Positions 29,800 to 37,626 of a DNA stretch of 40,794 bases are shown one piece after another. Origin of the DNA: Nitratiruptor sp. (GTDB lineage Bacteria; Campylobacterota; Campylobacteria; Campylobacterales; Nitratiruptoraceae); the NCBI GenBank assembly GCA_015494595.1, contig WGAX01000209.1, positions 1 to 40,794 of the forward strand, read 5' to 3'. The first letter of the stretch is position 1. The number at the start of each line of letters is the position of its first letter. A model generated the notes under the pieces. That model saw only the letters and a list, made by a program, of their open reading frames with translations, searched no databases and had not been told where the DNA came from. The translations under genes and the position numbers were made by a program.

Positions 29800-30147
29800 A
29801 TGGCAGAGACTAAATTTAACAACAAACAGATAGCAATTGCAATCAACCATCTCAACTTAGCACAAACAGAGCTTACAGAGTGTAGCGATATGCTCTATAC
29901 AGCACTTCAAACCATAGAGCAAAATGTGGAGAATCCTTCATTACACAATACAGTCATTCAAGCTTTAGCATCACTGCAGATGCAAGACATCATCTCTCAG
30001 CGCATTGACAAACTCAAAGAGTTTTTAAGTATTATCGATCAAAATATCTCTTTACCTATTGATGAGGCGTATCTTAAAAAATTTGCATGGGAAAGAGAAG
30101 TTGATCAAGCCGATGTAGACGCTCTATTTACCCATCAGGAAGGATAA
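29800..30147 (+). CDS. Short CheZ-like CheY-P phosphatase candidate
   Basis: 115 aa helical protein; ASLQMQDIISQRIDKLKEFL contains DxxxQ as in CheZ; first gene of chemotaxis operon. Confidence 0.6.
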   Translation: MAETKFNNKQIAIAINHLNLAQTELTECSDMLYTALQTIEQNVENPSLHNTVIQALASLQMQDIISQRIDKLKEFLSIIDQNISLPIDEAYLKKFAWEREVDQADVDALFTHQEG

Positions 30148-30151
30148 ACTT

Positions 30152-32146
30152 ATGCATATAAATGTCACGGAGGATATGCAAGAGATCTTAGATGAGTTTA
30201 TCCAAGAAGCAGAAGAGATTTTAGAAAATCTGGATCAAGAGCTTATAGAGTTAGAGAATGATCCAACCAATAAAGAGCTGCTCAATCAGATCTTTCGGGG
30301 AATGCACACCCTAAAAGGTGGTGCAGGATTTTTAGGATTAGAGAGCGTTATCAATCTGGCACATGTGATTGAGAGTATCTTTGATAAACTCAGAAATAAC
30401 GAAATGGAGTTGGACTCCAATAAGATGGATATTATTTTAGAGGGTATCGATATTATCAAAAACGCTATTGAAACTCTCAAAAGCAATCAAGAGATTCCAG
30501 ATAATGAGGATATAAGTGACATTTTAGCAAAACTTCAAACTCTTCTTGATGCTAAAGAGCCTTCACAAGAGCAAACCCAAGAAAAGAAGCAAGAAGAGAG
30601 CATACAACCCACGCAAACACATCCGGTAGGAGAGATTCAAAGTGATCTAGAGATAGTCTTTAAAGATGATGTAGATCCGGATATTCAAAAGCTTATCCTC
30701 CAATATCCCGACAAAACAATGGCAGAGATTTTAGATGAGCTTATCTTACTACCTCCTGAAGAGCGGGATATGGATCTCATTATGAAACTCGATGAGATTA
30801 TTGCTCAAGATAAAGATGTAGATGACCTCATTGTAGAAAAACGCCTCAAAGAGAGCAAAAAAATAGAAAATAAAGAGATCGAAAAAAAAGAGACCCCGAG
30901 CCCTCCCTCCTCTAAAGAGGCTGCAAAATCTCCTAAAAAAGCCAAAAAAGAGGAAGGCGAAACAATTCGCATCGATATAGAGAGAGTCTCTACACTTATG
31001 AATCTTGTAGGCGAGCTTGTCTTAGATCGCAACAGAATTGTAAAGCTCACCTCCAAATTTAAAGCCAACAGCGAAGATTTAGAAGCAATTGAAGAGCTCA
31101 ATGAAGCAATTGCGGGTATGAGCAGATCTGTATCAGATCTGCAAGAGGTGGTTATGAAGCTTAGAATGCAGCCAGTAAAGCGTATCTTTAGTAAATTTCC
31201 CCGCATTGTACGAGACTTGGCCAAAAAGGTTGGCAAAAAGATCAACTTAGAGCTGGAAGGTGAAGATACAGAGATAGATAGAAGTATACTCAACCAATTA
31301 GAAGATCCTCTTATTCACTTGGTACGAAATGCCATAGATCACGGCATAGAGCCTCCCCAAGAGCGCAAAGCCAAAGGAAAACCGGAAGTTGGCACCATTA
31401 TTCTTTCTGCTTTGCAAGAAGGAGACAGAATTATTGTCTCTATTGAGGATGATGGAAGAGGAATCGATCCAGAAAAGATTAAGAAAAAAGCGATCGAAAA
31501 GGGTCTTATTCGCCCTGATCAAGCAGAGCAGATGAGCGATAAAGAGGCTTATGAGCTTATCTTTATGCCCGGTTTTTCTACAGTTGAGGAGGTAAGCGAT
31601 TTAAGTGGACGCGGGGTTGGGATGGATGTGGTAGCCAATGTGATTCACTCTCTTCGCGGTGCAATAGAGATTGAAAGCGAGCTTGGTGTGGGTACTAAAA
31701 TTACTATGAAGCTCCCTTTAACGGTTGCCATTATCCGTACCCTTATGGTAGGGGTCAACAATCGCATATTTGCCATTCCTCTCTTTAGCGTAGTGGAGAT
31801 TATTAAATACAGACCCCAAGATATTAAAGATGTAGGTATATACAAATCTTTAATGCTGCGCGATGAGGTCTATCTCTTTTTCCATCTCAATGAGCTTTTT
31901 GATATAGAGAGCCACAATGAGAACAGATTTGTCATTATTATCAATATCGGAGAGAAAAATATTGCCATTGCAGTCGATAATTTATATGGAGAAGAGGAGA
32001 TTGTTATTAAACCTCTTGGAGAGATGCTCAAAGATGTAGAAGGGATAGCGGGTGCTACTATTACGGGTGATGGCAAGGTGGTGCTCATATTGGATATTAA
32101 ATCTCTCATTAATGATAAACGCAACGAACTCATAGGAGCCCTCTAA
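30152..32146 (+). CDS. cheA: Chemotaxis histidine kinase CheA
   Basis: HPt MHTLKGGAGFLG; HATPase LVRNAIDHGIEPPQERKAKGKP; C-terminal CheW-like domain. Confidence 0.97.
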   Translation: MHINVTEDMQEILDEFIQEAEEILENLDQELIELENDPTNKELLNQIFRGMHTLKGGAGFLGLESVINLAHVIESIFDKLRNNEMELDSNKMDIILEGIDIIKNAIETLKSNQEIPDNEDISDILAKLQTLLDAKEPSQEQTQEKKQEESIQPTQTHPVGEIQSDLEIVFKDDVDPDIQKLILQYPDKTMAEILDELILLPPEERDMDLIMKLDEIIAQDKDVDDLIVEKRLKESKKIENKEIEKKETPSPPSSKEAAKSPKKAKKEEGETIRIDIERVSTLMNLVGELVLDRNRIVKLTSKFKANSEDLEAIEELNEAIAGMSRSVSDLQEVVMKLRMQPVKRIFSKFPRIVRDLAKKVGKKINLELEGEDTEIDRSILNQLEDPLIHLVRNAIDHGIEPPQERKAKGKPEVGTIILSALQEGDRIIVSIEDDGRGIDPEKIKKKAIEKGLIRPDQAEQMSDKEAYELIFMPGFSTVEEVSDLSGRGVGMDVVANVIHSLRGAIEIESELGVGTKITMKLPLTVAIIRTLMVGVNNRIFAIPLFSVVEIIKYRPQDIKDVGIYKSLMLRDEVYLFFHLNELFDIESHNENRFVIIINIGEKNIAIAVDNLYGEEEIVIKPLGEMLKDVEGIAGATITGDGKVVLILDIKSLINDKRNELIGAL

Positions 32147-32655
32147 TGAAAGATATAGAAGTTTTGGGACTTAGTGAGCACCTTGATGAAAGCCTCAAAG
32201 AGGAGAAAAGAGTCATAGCATTCTTACTTAATGAGGAGCTTATTGGTATTGATATAAAAAACATTATCAAAATCACTAAGCGCCTCGATATTACTCCCGT
32301 GCCAAAAACTCCTGAGCATATTTTGGGAGTTATGAATCTACGAGGCAACATTGTACCTGTAGTAAACATTAAAAAAATGCTTGGACTACCCAATGCTGAA
32401 GAGGATAATCAAGAGTTTATCCTTATTATTGATTCTGCCATTGGCAATGTCGGTTTAATGATAGATCAAGTCGTTGGAGCTATTACAATAGAAGAGGAAG
32501 AGATTTTGCCAGCTCCTATTAACTCTATTGGAATTGACTCTAAATATATCACAGGTGTTATAGTCACAAATGAGGAGATGGAGAATAAAAACCTGCTCAT
32601 TTTGCTCAATATCGATAAGCTGTTTTACAAAAATGACTCTGAAAATGAGGAATAG
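32146..32655 (+). CDS. cheW: Chemotaxis coupling protein CheW
   Basis: ITPVPKTPEHILGVMNLRGNIVPVVNIKKMLGLP. Confidence 0.95.
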   Translation: MKDIEVLGLSEHLDESLKEEKRVIAFLLNEELIGIDIKNIIKITKRLDITPVPKTPEHILGVMNLRGNIVPVVNIKKMLGLPNAEEDNQEFILIIDSAIGNVGLMIDQVVGAITIEEEEILPAPINSIGIDSKYITGVIVTNEEMENKNLLILLNIDKLFYKNDSENEE

Positions 32656-32658
32656 GCA

Positions 32659-33618
32659 ATGAGAAAAAAAGAGTACCTACCCAAGATCTTAGAAACGGGT
32701 GCCAATGAGTTGGAGGTTATAGACTTTCGTATGTATGAAGAGATGGCAGATGGAAGTATATATGAGTGGGTTTTAGGAGTGAATGTAGCCAAGGTCAAAG
32801 AGGTTATTCAGCGCCCAACCAATATTTTTCGCTCTCCCGGTATGCCTCCGGAGGTAGAGGGATTGGCAAAAATTAGAGAGGATGTTATTCCCATAGTCAA
32901 TCTTGCTAAATGGATGAAGATTCACCCTCCGCAAGATAAAGAGAATAAGTATGTTATTGTAATGGAGTTTTTACGGGAAATCATTGGAATTTTAGTGCAT
33001 GAAGCCAAAAGAATTAGACGCATTAAATGGACAGATATAAAAAAGCCTCCTGCAAGTATCGACGAAAAGCTGGGAGGAAAAGTGGTAGGAGTTATTGAAA
33101 TTGAGGAGGGACAGCTGCTATTACTACTCGATTTTGAGGGCATTTTGGATGAGCTTGGTATGATTAAAGTTTTTAATGTTGATGATAAATATGCTCATAA
33201 AAAGAGTGAGGCTTCCTACAATATCTTAATTTTAGACGACAGCCCCGTAGCTCGTAAAATAATTCGCCAAATATTGGAAAAAGATGGTCACACAGTCTAC
33301 GAAGTAGAAAGCGGTATTAAAGGGTTGCAATTTTTAGAGGAAAAACTTCAAGAGGCTCAAAGAGAAGGAGTAGATATTACAGACAAACTGCAACTTATCA
33401 TTAGCGATATTGAGATGCCTGGAATGGATGGTCTCACCTTTACCAAAAAGGTGAAAGCAGATCCCATTCTTTCAAAAATTCCAATAGTTATTAATACTTC
33501 CCTCTCAGATAAAGCAACCGTAGATAAAACAAGATTTGTCAATGCCGATGCACACCTTGTAAAATTTGATTCAAAAGATCTTATTCATTTAGTTCACGAA
33601 TATGCAATAAAGAAATAG
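32659..33618 (+). CDS. cheV: CheV (CheW-like plus receiver domain)
   Basis: FRSPGMPPEVEGLAKIREDVIPIVNLAKWM followed by ILILDDSPVARKIIRQIL...IISDIEMPGMDG. Confidence 0.95.
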   Translation: MRKKEYLPKILETGANELEVIDFRMYEEMADGSIYEWVLGVNVAKVKEVIQRPTNIFRSPGMPPEVEGLAKIREDVIPIVNLAKWMKIHPPQDKENKYVIVMEFLREIIGILVHEAKRIRRIKWTDIKKPPASIDEKLGGKVVGVIEIEEGQLLLLLDFEGILDELGMIKVFNVDDKYAHKKSEASYNILILDDSPVARKIIRQILEKDGHTVYEVESGIKGLQFLEEKLQEAQREGVDITDKLQLIISDIEMPGMDGLTFTKKVKADPILSKIPIVINTSLSDKATVDKTRFVNADAHLVKFDSKDLIHLVHEYAIKK

Positions 33619-33630
33619 AAGGAGAGTTCG

Positions 33631-34029
33631 ATGGCACTACCTGATAAAAATATGAAAATTTTGGTTGTAGATGATGCACCAATGATTAGAAGAATTTTAA
33701 AAAATCTTCTCAAAGAGATGGGTTTTACCAATATTGAAGAGGCTGAAGACGGTATGGCAGCACTGCAAAAACTGCGCAATGATAAGTTCGATTTTGTCAT
33801 AACCGACTGGAATATGCCAAACCTCACAGGGATTGAGTTGGTTCAAGAGATCAGAAAAGATCCAAATCTCAAACATTTGCCGATAATGATGGTTACAGCA
33901 GAAGCGAAAAAAGAGAATATTATTCTCGCTCTTAAAAGTGGAGTCAATAACTATATTGTCAAACCTTTTACACCTGAGAGTGTAAAAGCCAAAATAGAGG
34001 CTATCTTTTCGGCAAAAACAAAAGCATAG
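33631..34029 (+). CDS. cheY: Chemotaxis response regulator CheY
   Basis: LVVDDAPMIRRILKNLLKEMGF...FVITDWNMPNLTG...GVNNYIVKPFTPE. Confidence 0.93.
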   Translation: MALPDKNMKILVVDDAPMIRRILKNLLKEMGFTNIEEAEDGMAALQKLRNDKFDFVITDWNMPNLTGIELVQEIRKDPNLKHLPIMMVTAEAKKENIILALKSGVNNYIVKPFTPESVKAKIEAIFSAKTKA

Positions 34030-34038
34030 GAGTTCAAT

Positions 34039-35367
34039 ATGAATAAACCAGATCACCATGAAGAGTTTAAGGAGCAGCTAGAGGATTCCCCAGCAGCACT
34101 CATAGGCTGCCAAAAGAAGCTCGATGCTCTTTTGAAAATGGATAAAGAGCGATGGATTCAAAGTGGGGGGAAACTAAGCGAAGCAATTTTTAATGCAGCT
34201 TTGGTAAAAACAGGAGTATATAGATTTAAAAATCGATTTAACAAATTTAATGCCTCTTTCCAAAAAATTACAGATACAAGCAAAGAGAGTCTAAAAACTA
34301 CAGAGACTATTATGCAAAGTATCAAAGAGATTGAGGAGGCACAAAAGGAGACTACTGATCACATTGAGCATGGAGAGATGATTCTTAACAAGACCAATCA
34401 AGATATTCTTGAATCGGTCAAAGCGATGGATAATCTTACAAAAACTACTGAGGAGCTTAAAAGAAAAATCAGTGGTATTGATCATGTACTTAATGTTATT
34501 CTTGAAATTACTGAGCAAACCAATCTCCTTGCTCTCAACGCTGCAATTGAGGCAGCAAGAGCAGGAGAAGTTGGACGAGGGTTTGCAGTGGTTGCAGATG
34601 AGGTAAGAAAACTTGCAGAAAAGACCAGCAAAAGCGCCAGTGAGATTAGGGAAGTAACTATTTCAGTAATGGATGAGATGGACAATACCGCAAAAGTGGT
34701 CACTAATGCAAAAACCATTGTAGAAGATAGTGCTGAGGGGGCTAGTGGCGTTCTTAAAACATTTCATAAAATCAAACAGACCAGCTCTAATGTCACCTCT
34801 TTGATTAAGCGCCAAATCGAGTATACCAATATGCAAAAGGACAATATCCACACCTTTTCTGAAGAGATCCAAAAACTCAACGAAGATCTCAAACAGGCAC
34901 AAGAGCTTGCCTCTATTACAGGAGCGCGTATCATCTCTACCATCGACTATATGAAAGATGGTATTGAAAAATGCTCAGAATTTACAAAAGATGCACCAGT
35001 AACGCTACTGCTTGATGCTATTAAATCGCATTCAGTCTATATTACAAATGTAGCAAAACTCTTGGAAGGGTATGAAAATATCTCCTTAAAAGATTTTACC
35101 TCCTGTGATTTTGGCAGATGGTTCTACTCTGGAGAGGCATTTAAAGCACTGAGAGGATATGGTAATGAGGTTATTGCTCTTCTTGAAGGTACAGAGGAGT
35201 ATCACAAAGCAGTCCACAATATCGCACAAGAGCTTATTCGTCTCAAAAAAGAGCATAGAGAAGATGAAGTTTTCCTTAAATTTCAAGAGCTTGCAGATGC
35301 TGCCAACACATTAGTAAAAGAGCTTATGAAAATTTATGCCATAGTAGCTGCAAAAGAGATGGAGTAG
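34039..35367 (+). CDS. Soluble methyl-accepting chemotaxis protein with C-terminal CZB domain
   Basis: Canonical MCP tip [39 protein letters not shown]-terminal [12 protein letters not shown]...[12 protein letters not shown]; no TM segment. Confidence 0.92.
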
Positions 35368-35377
35368 TGGAGCAAAA

Positions 35378-36826
35378 ATGATGATGTACAAAAATATCTA
35401 CAATAAACGGGGAATTGAGCCTAAAAATGTAGCTTCAGATTTTGCACTTCCGGAGCTTTTTTTCTCTATCACAGACCCCAAAGGAATCATTCTTACTGGC
35501 AATGATGTATTTCAAAGGGTAAGTAAGTTTGAAAGAGATGAGCTTATTGGTAAACCCCATAATATCATCCGCCATCCCGATGTACCCAGAGCTGTATTCA
35601 AAGCTGTATGGAATACTATAAAACAGGGCAAACCCTTTGTAGGATATGTAAAAAATATGGCAAAAGATGGCTCCTACTATTGGGTTTTGGCAGCAATCTA
35701 TCCAGTCATCAACGAAGAGGGAAAAATAGAAAAATATATATCTATTCGCCTTAAGCCATCTTCAAAAATGTTTGAGCTCATCCCCTCTTTTTATAAAAAT
35801 GTCTTAGAAGTAGAGCTCAAAAACGATATGGATACAGCTTTACAGTTTATGCTGGAAAAACTGAAAGAGTTAGGTTTTGATAGCTATGAAGAGTTTGCCA
35901 AACAGGCATTTTTTCAAGAGATCCAAAGCAGAGAGAAACTCCTTGCCAATAAACAGGATATGAGCTGTCAAGTAGATCTCTCTAATGTCATTGCCCAAAA
36001 TACCGATTTTATAGATCTCTTATGCAGCCTTGAGACCATATTTTTTAGACTCAATCGCTACTTCAACGAAATTTTTGGCAAAGTTAATCTCTTTTTAAAT
36101 CTTAATGAAGAGCTTAATAACAAAAGTAAATTCATCTACGAGTTAGCCGAAGATATTCGCCTCCTCTCCCTTAATGCTTCCATTGAGAGCTATAAAATCA
36201 AAAAAGAGGGAGTATCATTTTCAACACTCTCCCATGAGATGCGAAAAAATGCGGAGCTGAGTGAGAGAAAAATCCTTCAACTAAGTAAAATTATCGATAA
36301 CACAAAAAAAGATATTGAAGATATAGGGTTTAATATCCTCACATCCAAACTCGTCATTGAGATGATTACATTCTTCATCAAAGAGATGATTAATAATCTT
36401 TCAGAAAAGAGAATCAAAGATGAGAAGCAAAAAGAGGTCATTAACAGTATTAATGAGCTTTTTTCACTGCTTGTTGTCTACTCTAATAACCTCTCTAAAA
36501 ATGTCGATGCCTCCAAAAGCCAGCTTCGCTCTATGTTTTACAATATCCAAGAGCTCAATGTTCTTATCAACAGGCTCGACTTCATCCATATCAACGGACT
36601 CATTGAATCTGCCCATACCAAAGAGGAGGGAGGAGGATTTACCATAATTTTCTCTCAAATGCTTAAACTCATAGAGGCAGCCAAAAATGAGATTATCAAT
36701 TTAGAGACAAGCATATCTGGAGCAAGTGAAGAAAACCTTACCGTCAACCTCATCACAGAGATCGCTCAACAAAAGATTGTACGACTCCAAAAAGAGTATA
36801 AAGAGGTATTCAGAAGTTATGTGTAG
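35378..36826 (+). CDS. PAS (Aer-like) sensor with degenerate MCP-like helical region
   Basis: PAS: PELFFSITDPKGIILTGNDVFQRVSKFERDELIGKPHNIIRHPDVPRAVFKAVWNTIKQGKPFVGYVKNMAKDGSYYWVLA; MCP-like LLSLNASIESYKIKKEGVSFSTLSHEMRKNAELS. Confidence 0.85.
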   Translation: MMMYKNIYNKRGIEPKNVASDFALPELFFSITDPKGIILTGNDVFQRVSKFERDELIGKPHNIIRHPDVPRAVFKAVWNTIKQGKPFVGYVKNMAKDGSYYWVLAAIYPVINEEGKIEKYISIRLKPSSKMFELIPSFYKNVLEVELKNDMDTALQFMLEKLKELGFDSYEEFAKQAFFQEIQSREKLLANKQDMSCQVDLSNVIAQNTDFIDLLCSLETIFFRLNRYFNEIFGKVNLFLNLNEELNNKSKFIYELAEDIRLLSLNASIESYKIKKEGVSFSTLSHEMRKNAELSERKILQLSKIIDNTKKDIEDIGFNILTSKLVIEMITFFIKEMINNLSEKRIKDEKQKEVINSINELFSLLVVYSNNLSKNVDASKSQLRSMFYNIQELNVLINRLDFIHINGLIESAHTKEEGGGFTIIFSQMLKLIEAAKNEIINLETSISGASEENLTVNLITEIAQQKIVRLQKEYKEVFRSYV

Positions 36827-37626
36827 TCAATAACTCTATCAAGCTTTGCAAAAGCCTTTTGCAAAATGCGCTCATTATATCTTTCACAATCTCGTTTCAG
36901 CGATTTTTTAAAGCTCAATCTCTTAATCTCCTCTTTACTAGCACCCTGAGCAATCGCCTCTTTCAGCTCTCTGTCCACATCGATATTTTGATTGGCCAAT
37001 TCCCATACTGTAACACCAAAAGCTCTAGAGTACTTAATCGCATCGCTATCACTCAATACCAAATAGTTTCTATCCTTTTGATCTATATAGTTAATGACAC
37101 CTTTTGTCTCAAAAAATCCATACTTATCCCCCAAAAAAATATCAAACTGATGCTCTAGATCTCTACTCTCATTCCATCTGTTCAGCACAAAGATAGTTTT
37201 TATGGCAGGATGTGCATTTTTTAATTTCTGATAAATCGTAATTGCACTAACGGCATCAAGCTCTCCATCCATCAAAGGAATAACTACAGCATCAAGCATA
37301 TAAACCATACCACTATCAATAAGCGACTCCAACACATACACTGCAGTCTTATTTGCACCCACATCCATTACAATATGATTTTCCAACAGCAAAATATCAC
37401 GAAGCTCCTCCCGCAAATCCTTGCCTGCAACCTCCACTTTCTCTAGCCATACCAATCTACTCTTTTCAAAAGAGATACTATCCTCATTCTCATCATCAAA
37501 CTCAAAAAAAGATACAGGCTGCTTAAATTTTTGGTAGAGATAGGGGACAACAAGCTGCATACTTACAGTACTTTTACCAACACCACCCTTGGTGTTGATA
37601 ACAGCAATTTTATAAAACTTTTGCAT
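36817..37626 (-). CDS. ParA/MinD-superfamily ATPase
   Basis: Deviant Walker A INTKGGVGKSTVSMQL; IVMDVGANKTAVYVLESL; VIPLMDGELDAVSA. Confidence 0.85.
   Translation of the reverse strand: MQKFYKIAVINTKGGVGKSTVSMQLVVPYLYQKFKQPVSFFEFDDENEDSISFEKSRLVWLEKVEVAGKDLREELRDILLLENHIVMDVGANKTAVYVLESLIDSGMVYMLDAVVIPLMDGELDAVSAITIYQKLKNAHPAIKTIFVLNRWNESRDLEHQFDIFLGDKYGFFETKGVINYIDQKDRNYLVLSDSDAIKYSRAFGVTVWELANQNIDVDRELKEAIAQGASKEEIKRLSFKKSLKRDCERYNERILQKAFAKLDRVIDYT

Follow-up and report, generated by a model that had tools for sequence, protein, structure and literature searches.

A putative single-chain chemoreceptor with an Aer-type PAS domain and two different conserved tips closes the che operon of Nitratiruptor

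In a normal chemoreceptor dimer, one subunit points toward the trimer axis and the other toward CheA/CheW (PMC4692393). The identical subunits of a trimer of dimers occupy different places, and as one mutation alters both of them, it is difficult to tell what each one does. To separate the two subunit roles, a single-chain Tsr has been engineered, an approach hampered by subunit swapping; it signals in E. coli, and therefore one chain can take over the function of a dimer (PMC4692393). The same paper mentions soluble single-chain MCP domains that occur naturally in Rhodospirillum centenum and a few others (PMC4692393). A different arrangement is found in Vibrio cholerae DosM, which has two tips per chain, one located at each end of a rod by cryo-tomography (PMC7534058). 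When we searched the literature for receptors that naturally carry two tips or work as a single chain, DosM and the single-chain Tsr paper were the only results. In homologous receptors, the trimer contacts involve E385-R388 locks and F396 stacking (PMC8144572).

The window analysed here is a stretch of 40,794 nucleotides from a Nitratiruptor sp. assembly (GCA_015494595.1, contig WGAX01000209.1) that carries a che operon on the + strand. The operon begins with a 115-aa ORF (29800-30147) whose first position is conserved in the family and to which Pfam gave no family at a meaningful score, followed by cheA (30152-32146), cheW (32146-32655), cheV (32659-33618), cheY (33631-34029) and a soluble MCP with a CZB domain (34039-35367), all five identified with Pfam. 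The last gene, at 35378-36826 (+), is delimited by its ORF, its translation and its orthologs (55-90% identity within the family), and encodes a protein of 482 aa made of an Aer-type PAS domain, a short helical linker and two receptor-tip hairpins in succession, hereafter the double-tip protein. A sequence-only reading of positions 36130-36705, which fall within this gene, had proposed a PAS sensor carrying two tandem MCP-tip motifs, and both of the peptides that it quoted are present in the ORF, at residues 256-295 and 396-439, with their centres 142 residues apart.

Nearly every genome of the genus and the family has a relative of the double-tip protein, whose best named matches are Nitratiruptor MAGs. 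As far as their contigs extend, the fetched Nitratiruptor-type loci keep the gene order of the window and continue with convergent parA, mrp and thiC. The double-tip gene closes the sole cheA operon in every checkable locus of this type, and cheA is single-copy in the 12/12 genus genomes where it was found. A second and large Campylobacterota family, f17, also has relatives, with profile E values from 1e-41 to 1e-58; there the operon reads REC-cheW-MCP-cheA-cheR-homolog-HK-cheD-cheB in 7/7 loci, the most distal genes being cut off in two of them. Linkage to cheA in two independent kinds of che operon is strong, though indirect, support for a role in a chemosensory array. In f17, the gene directly after the double-tip homolog and before cheD-cheB encodes a small histidine-kinase-like protein (HATPase_c; L102:7707-8513, +, with equivalents in L103-L108), with a HisKA-like stretch seemingly devoid of the phospho-acceptor His (SLIASELNNPM).

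Seen through Pfam, the double-tip protein is merely a PAS domain with a sub-threshold MCP fragment: PF00015 scores 33.9 bits on the whole protein and 35.4 bits on its C-terminal part, around a cut-off of 34.6, and 29.8 bits on tip 1 alone, with no match to hairpin 2 alone. NCBIfam and PHROGs returned nothing for the C-terminal part, and a plasmid search gave a single weak MCP match at 24% identity. A profile built from the C-terminal part does find solved MCP structures in the tip-1 region, the best being 2ch7 (E 9e-10). Since Pfam scored only hairpin 1 when run on the halves, we built family profiles of hairpin 1 (residues 205-340) and hairpin 2 (348-482) and compared them with one made from nine canonical receptors, using shuffled, heptad-preserving and reversed controls. 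Hairpin 1 matched with a score of 86.6 (E 2e-14, probability 98.3) and hairpin 2 with 45.8 (E 3e-7, probability 93.1), both in the register of the tip. The best scores among 100 column shuffles that kept the heptad phase were 19.2 and 22.8 for hairpins 1 and 2, respectively, and profile reversal gave 15.6 and 20.2; even as a single sequence, hairpin 2 scored 15.3 bits, against at most 11.4 among 500 heptad-preserving shuffles. As all these control scores are lower, both similarities exceed chance, and at the sequence level the comparison shows that hairpins 1 and 2 are each homologous to MCP tips. An MCP-like score for one half alone, which the sequence-only reading had named as counting against it, is what Pfam by itself gives, but the profile comparison finds homology in both halves. 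Tip 1 (residues 256-295, 36143-36262, +) is placed by the partial PF00015 match, the profile comparison and the residue table described below, and tip 2 (residues 396-439, 36563-36694, +) by the profile comparison, its controls and the same table. Duplication of one hairpin within the family was considered and rejected: the two hairpins match each other weakly (E 0.001) and each is closer to MCPs. We accordingly prefer two MCP tips, or a DosM-like ancestor, as the source of the pair.

The PAS domain (residues 20-126, 35435-35755, +, with 28-126 as a narrower delimitation) is supported by Pfam, by the Aer structures, by invariant columns and by the residues of the Aer pocket. PF08447 (PAS_3) scores 54.6 bits, the closest solved structures by phmmer are those of E. 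coli Aer (31cj/8dik), and in a Foldseek search with the full-length model, which is dominated by PAS matches, the top match is 8dik with a TM of 0.92; the PAS sensor of the sequence-only reading is thereby borne out. In Aer the FAD pocket includes R57, W70, N85 and R115 (PMC9668731). Their counterparts R65, W78, N93 and R124 are invariant in 21 family members, and together with the sequence and fold match to 8dik this makes FAD binding likely. A redox or energy-sensing input, as had been suggested, is likewise probable. No HAMP domain was hit in the Pfam search of the double-tip protein, and its AlphaFold2 model contains only PAS, linker and bundle, the linker being three short predicted helices (residues 130-148, 151-164 and 170-189; 35765-35944, +). 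Elsewhere in the same genome, a CetB-like PAS-only protein (L002:1462-1998, +) is 56% identical to the PAS of the double-tip protein over 99 residues.

The full-length AlphaFold2 model (pLDDT 85.3, pTM 0.81, 17 sequences) predicts that one chain forms a four-helix fold. After the PAS domain and the three short helices, the chain runs through four long helices, all of 65-68 residues and interrupted by tip 1, a mid loop and tip 2: the descending helix N1 of hairpin 1 (residues 206-273, 35993-36196), its ascending helix C1 (278-342, 36209-36403), the loop between the hairpins (343-347, 36404-36418), and the descending and ascending helices of hairpin 2, N2 (348-413, 36419-36616) and C2 (415-479, 36620-36814), all on the + strand. 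As a monomer prediction based on 17 sequences, the model may over-pack its helices, and a run on the C-terminal part only (pTM 0.70) gave residues 206-343 as a single unbroken helix, so that the turn predicted at tip 1 should be read with caution. Foldseek with the C-terminal bundle model returned weak matches alone, none at E <= 0.001, among them generic four-helix bundles, the artificial Maquette-3 (target-normalised TM up to 0.56) and weak MCP models. Independently of any model, C1, N2 and the loop are also delimited by length comparison in 27 homologs, in which tip 1 and the loop are separated by 61-63 residues and the loop and tip 2 by 64-68. The loop itself, of 5-14 residues and not varying by sevens, is the sole length-variable segment between the tips, which lie 133-142 residues apart. 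Fixed and equal arms joined by a length-variable loop lead us to a fold-back reading, in which both tips would lie at the same end and a single chain would form by itself the four-helix bundle that a receptor dimer normally provides. In E. coli receptors the methylation sites are some 80 residues or more away from the tip; the modelled arms of 65-68 residues appear too short for such sites, and the double-tip protein is therefore probably without methylation sites and without a methylation adaptation of its own.

Taken together, these data suggest a natural soluble single-chain chemoreceptor, in which an Aer-type PAS domain, a fold-back bundle and two tips would join CheA/CheW arrays, a proposal that we regard as about evenly balanced between right and wrong. 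The PAS domain would sense the redox state of the cell through FAD, and a redox change at the PAS-FAD could alter the linker and, through it, the four-helix bundle. With two tip hairpins held side by side by a short loop, a single polypeptide would replace the receptor homodimer, and its tips may enter the CheA/CheW array together with the neighbouring soluble CZB receptor. As the tips differ and are separately conserved, they probably take two non-equivalent places of the receptor dimer, at the trimer axis and at the CheA/CheW side. The input would be non-adapting and would bias CheA according to redox state. More tentatively, and with rather less confidence than we grant the single-chain receptor itself, the two subunit roles of a dimer could be fixed in the two hairpins, each having evolved for its own place, to give an unmethylated redox receptor with a defined orientation in the array.

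The residues of the tips, tabulated for 38 sequences in Tsr numbering, bear on what such a chain could do. Tip 1 retains the equivalents of N381, the basic residue 388, G393, F396 and R/K404, has E/D at 402 almost always and keeps the E385 equivalent except in f17, without the G390/E391/G395 pattern. Tip 2 always retains E385 and F396, and in part of the sequences N381, and is invariant at G407, E410, F421, I424, F425, Q427 and L431; it lacks the equivalents of R388, E402 and R404, the last two being replaced by Q427 and L429, and has invariant novelties in G at position 382, F at 400 and Q at 402. Neither tip carries the full canonical set of N381, E385, R388, E391, F396, E402 and R404, so that the changed key positions noticed earlier are real. 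Their attribution to decay, however, does not stand. In the Nitratiruptor group, no other part of the C-terminal half is as conserved as the tips, where dN is the lowest of the gene: it is 0.02-0.10 for tip 1 and 0.00-0.14 for tip 2, compared with 0.05-0.39 for the arms, dS being high or saturated, which at the codon level establishes purifying selection on the protein. Because the tips evolve slowest in the C-terminal half and keep signatures of their own across two phyla, we reject decay: judged from the alignments, they are two different, separately maintained surfaces, altered but strictly conserved.

The same residues leave room for an array modulator or decoy, which would enter receptor trimers with altered tips unable to activate CheA, and would dilute or lock its neighbours depending on redox state. 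Canonical determinants are indeed missing, above all in tip 2, while the trimer contacts E385 and F396 are kept, and a canonical soluble receptor that could serve as a partner is encoded next door. However, one tip would suffice for such a function, and two distinct signatures maintained over two phyla would not be expected from it; we consider this explanation rather doubtful.

A smaller version of DosM is the other main alternative. A homodimer would then form a rod with one tip at either end and connect two CheA/CheW layers, about 20 nm apart, within a cytoplasmic array; the V. cholerae protein is a rod of this kind (PMC7534058). Some genomes of the genus also encode DosM. The score of hairpin 2 is highest with DosM tip 2 (46.7), nearly as high with canonical MCPs (45.8) and lower with DosM tip 1 (30.0); both second tips have G at the Tsr A382 position. 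In a tip tree hairpin 2 groups with DosM tip 2 with a support of 88%, a grouping that is merely suggestive since the tree is built on 100 columns and has long branches. A common ancestry with DosM is thus possible from the sequences. Tip spacing and segment lengths speak against a rod. The tips of the retrieved Nitratiruptor DosM proteins are 299 residues apart, versus 133-142 here, the indels in the mid loop break the heptad register, and equal hairpin arms are required by the fold-back and not by a rod. We therefore judge the rod unlikely. DosM itself is sporadic, with 6/200 genomes of the phylum at E 1e-40; two complete Nitratiruptor-type genomes, G001 and G012, have two different DosM-type proteins each (L139-L146).

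The bundle could also be receptor-like with an output outside the CheA array, for instance on a partner protein or on the adjacent ParA. Three copies in a Hydrogenothermaceae MAG (Aquificota; L100:1190-2569, L101:5911-7326 and L061:7425-8783) are not adjoining che genes, and four Nitratiruptor-type genomes (L036, L037, L038, L039) have a second stand-alone paralog, about 30-32% identical, away from che genes. Against this, the double-tip gene lies inside a cheA operon at every checkable Nitratiruptor-type and f17 locus, and an output of this kind seems quite improbable to us. A few other genomes also hold relatives (L064), and tip 1 of the second Nitratiruptor-type paralog is nearer to canonical MCPs. 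The flagellar che set of Nitratiruptor has been assigned to F14, and this F14 chemosensory and flagellar set is reported to have been received from Aquificota (PMC9321776). The ParA-like ATPase (36817-37626, -) is convergent with the che operon and conserved beside it in Nitratiruptor-type loci. PpfA and ParC position cytoplasmic arrays elsewhere, and by analogy this ATPase might do the same. Finally, a vestigial or decaying chemoreceptor, to which tips off the consensus and a Pfam score under the family cut-off could point, is very unlikely and can practically be set aside, because the gene is fixed in two different chemosensory operons, its tips show a dN of 0.00-0.14 with saturated dS, and its ORF and gene order are kept intact in all family genomes.

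The single-chain receptor would, if true, be useful beyond this operon: a natural chain with two different conserved tips could reveal the residues needed at each place of the dimer, and the subunit roles would be testable by mutating the tips singly. With relatives in Nitratiruptor-type genomes, in f17 and in Aquificota, the double-tip protein is apparently an overlooked and widespread component of Campylobacterota chemosensory operons.

In comparison with known systems, the double-tip protein shares with Aer, its best PDB match, an N-terminal FAD-type PAS of the Aer group, but Aer has one canonical tip, a HAMP domain and a membrane anchor and dimerises, whereas here there are two tips and no Pfam HAMP. 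CetB, of the CetA-CetB energy taxis system, has the same type of PAS and nothing but the PAS. The neighbouring CZB receptor is in the same operon and has a homologous tip, yet that tip is its only one and is canonical (PF00015, 129 bits), and the protein has a zinc-binding CZB domain at its C-terminus. As in the natural single-chain MCP domains of R. centenum and a few others, and in the engineered single-chain Tsr/Tar, two kinase-control hairpins on one polypeptide would replace the homodimer. The two tips of the engineered proteins are identical and canonical, while those of the double-tip protein are both divergent and mutually different, on shorter arms and with an Aer PAS as input. DosM (V. 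cholerae VC1403, also in Nitratiruptor) is likewise soluble, with two asymmetric tip hairpins per chain and the G at the Tsr A382 position of the second tip. It has about 630 aa with near-canonical tips about 300 residues apart at opposite rod ends, as opposed to 142 residues between much more altered tips accompanied by an Aer-type PAS, and belongs to an F9 set with cheW3/cheBR, whereas the double-tip gene is in a cheA-W-V-Y operon or in other types of cheA operon. DosM and the engineered single-chain Tsr are the known relatives, and the double-tip protein departs from them in combining in one chain an Aer PAS with two divergent, different and conserved tips.
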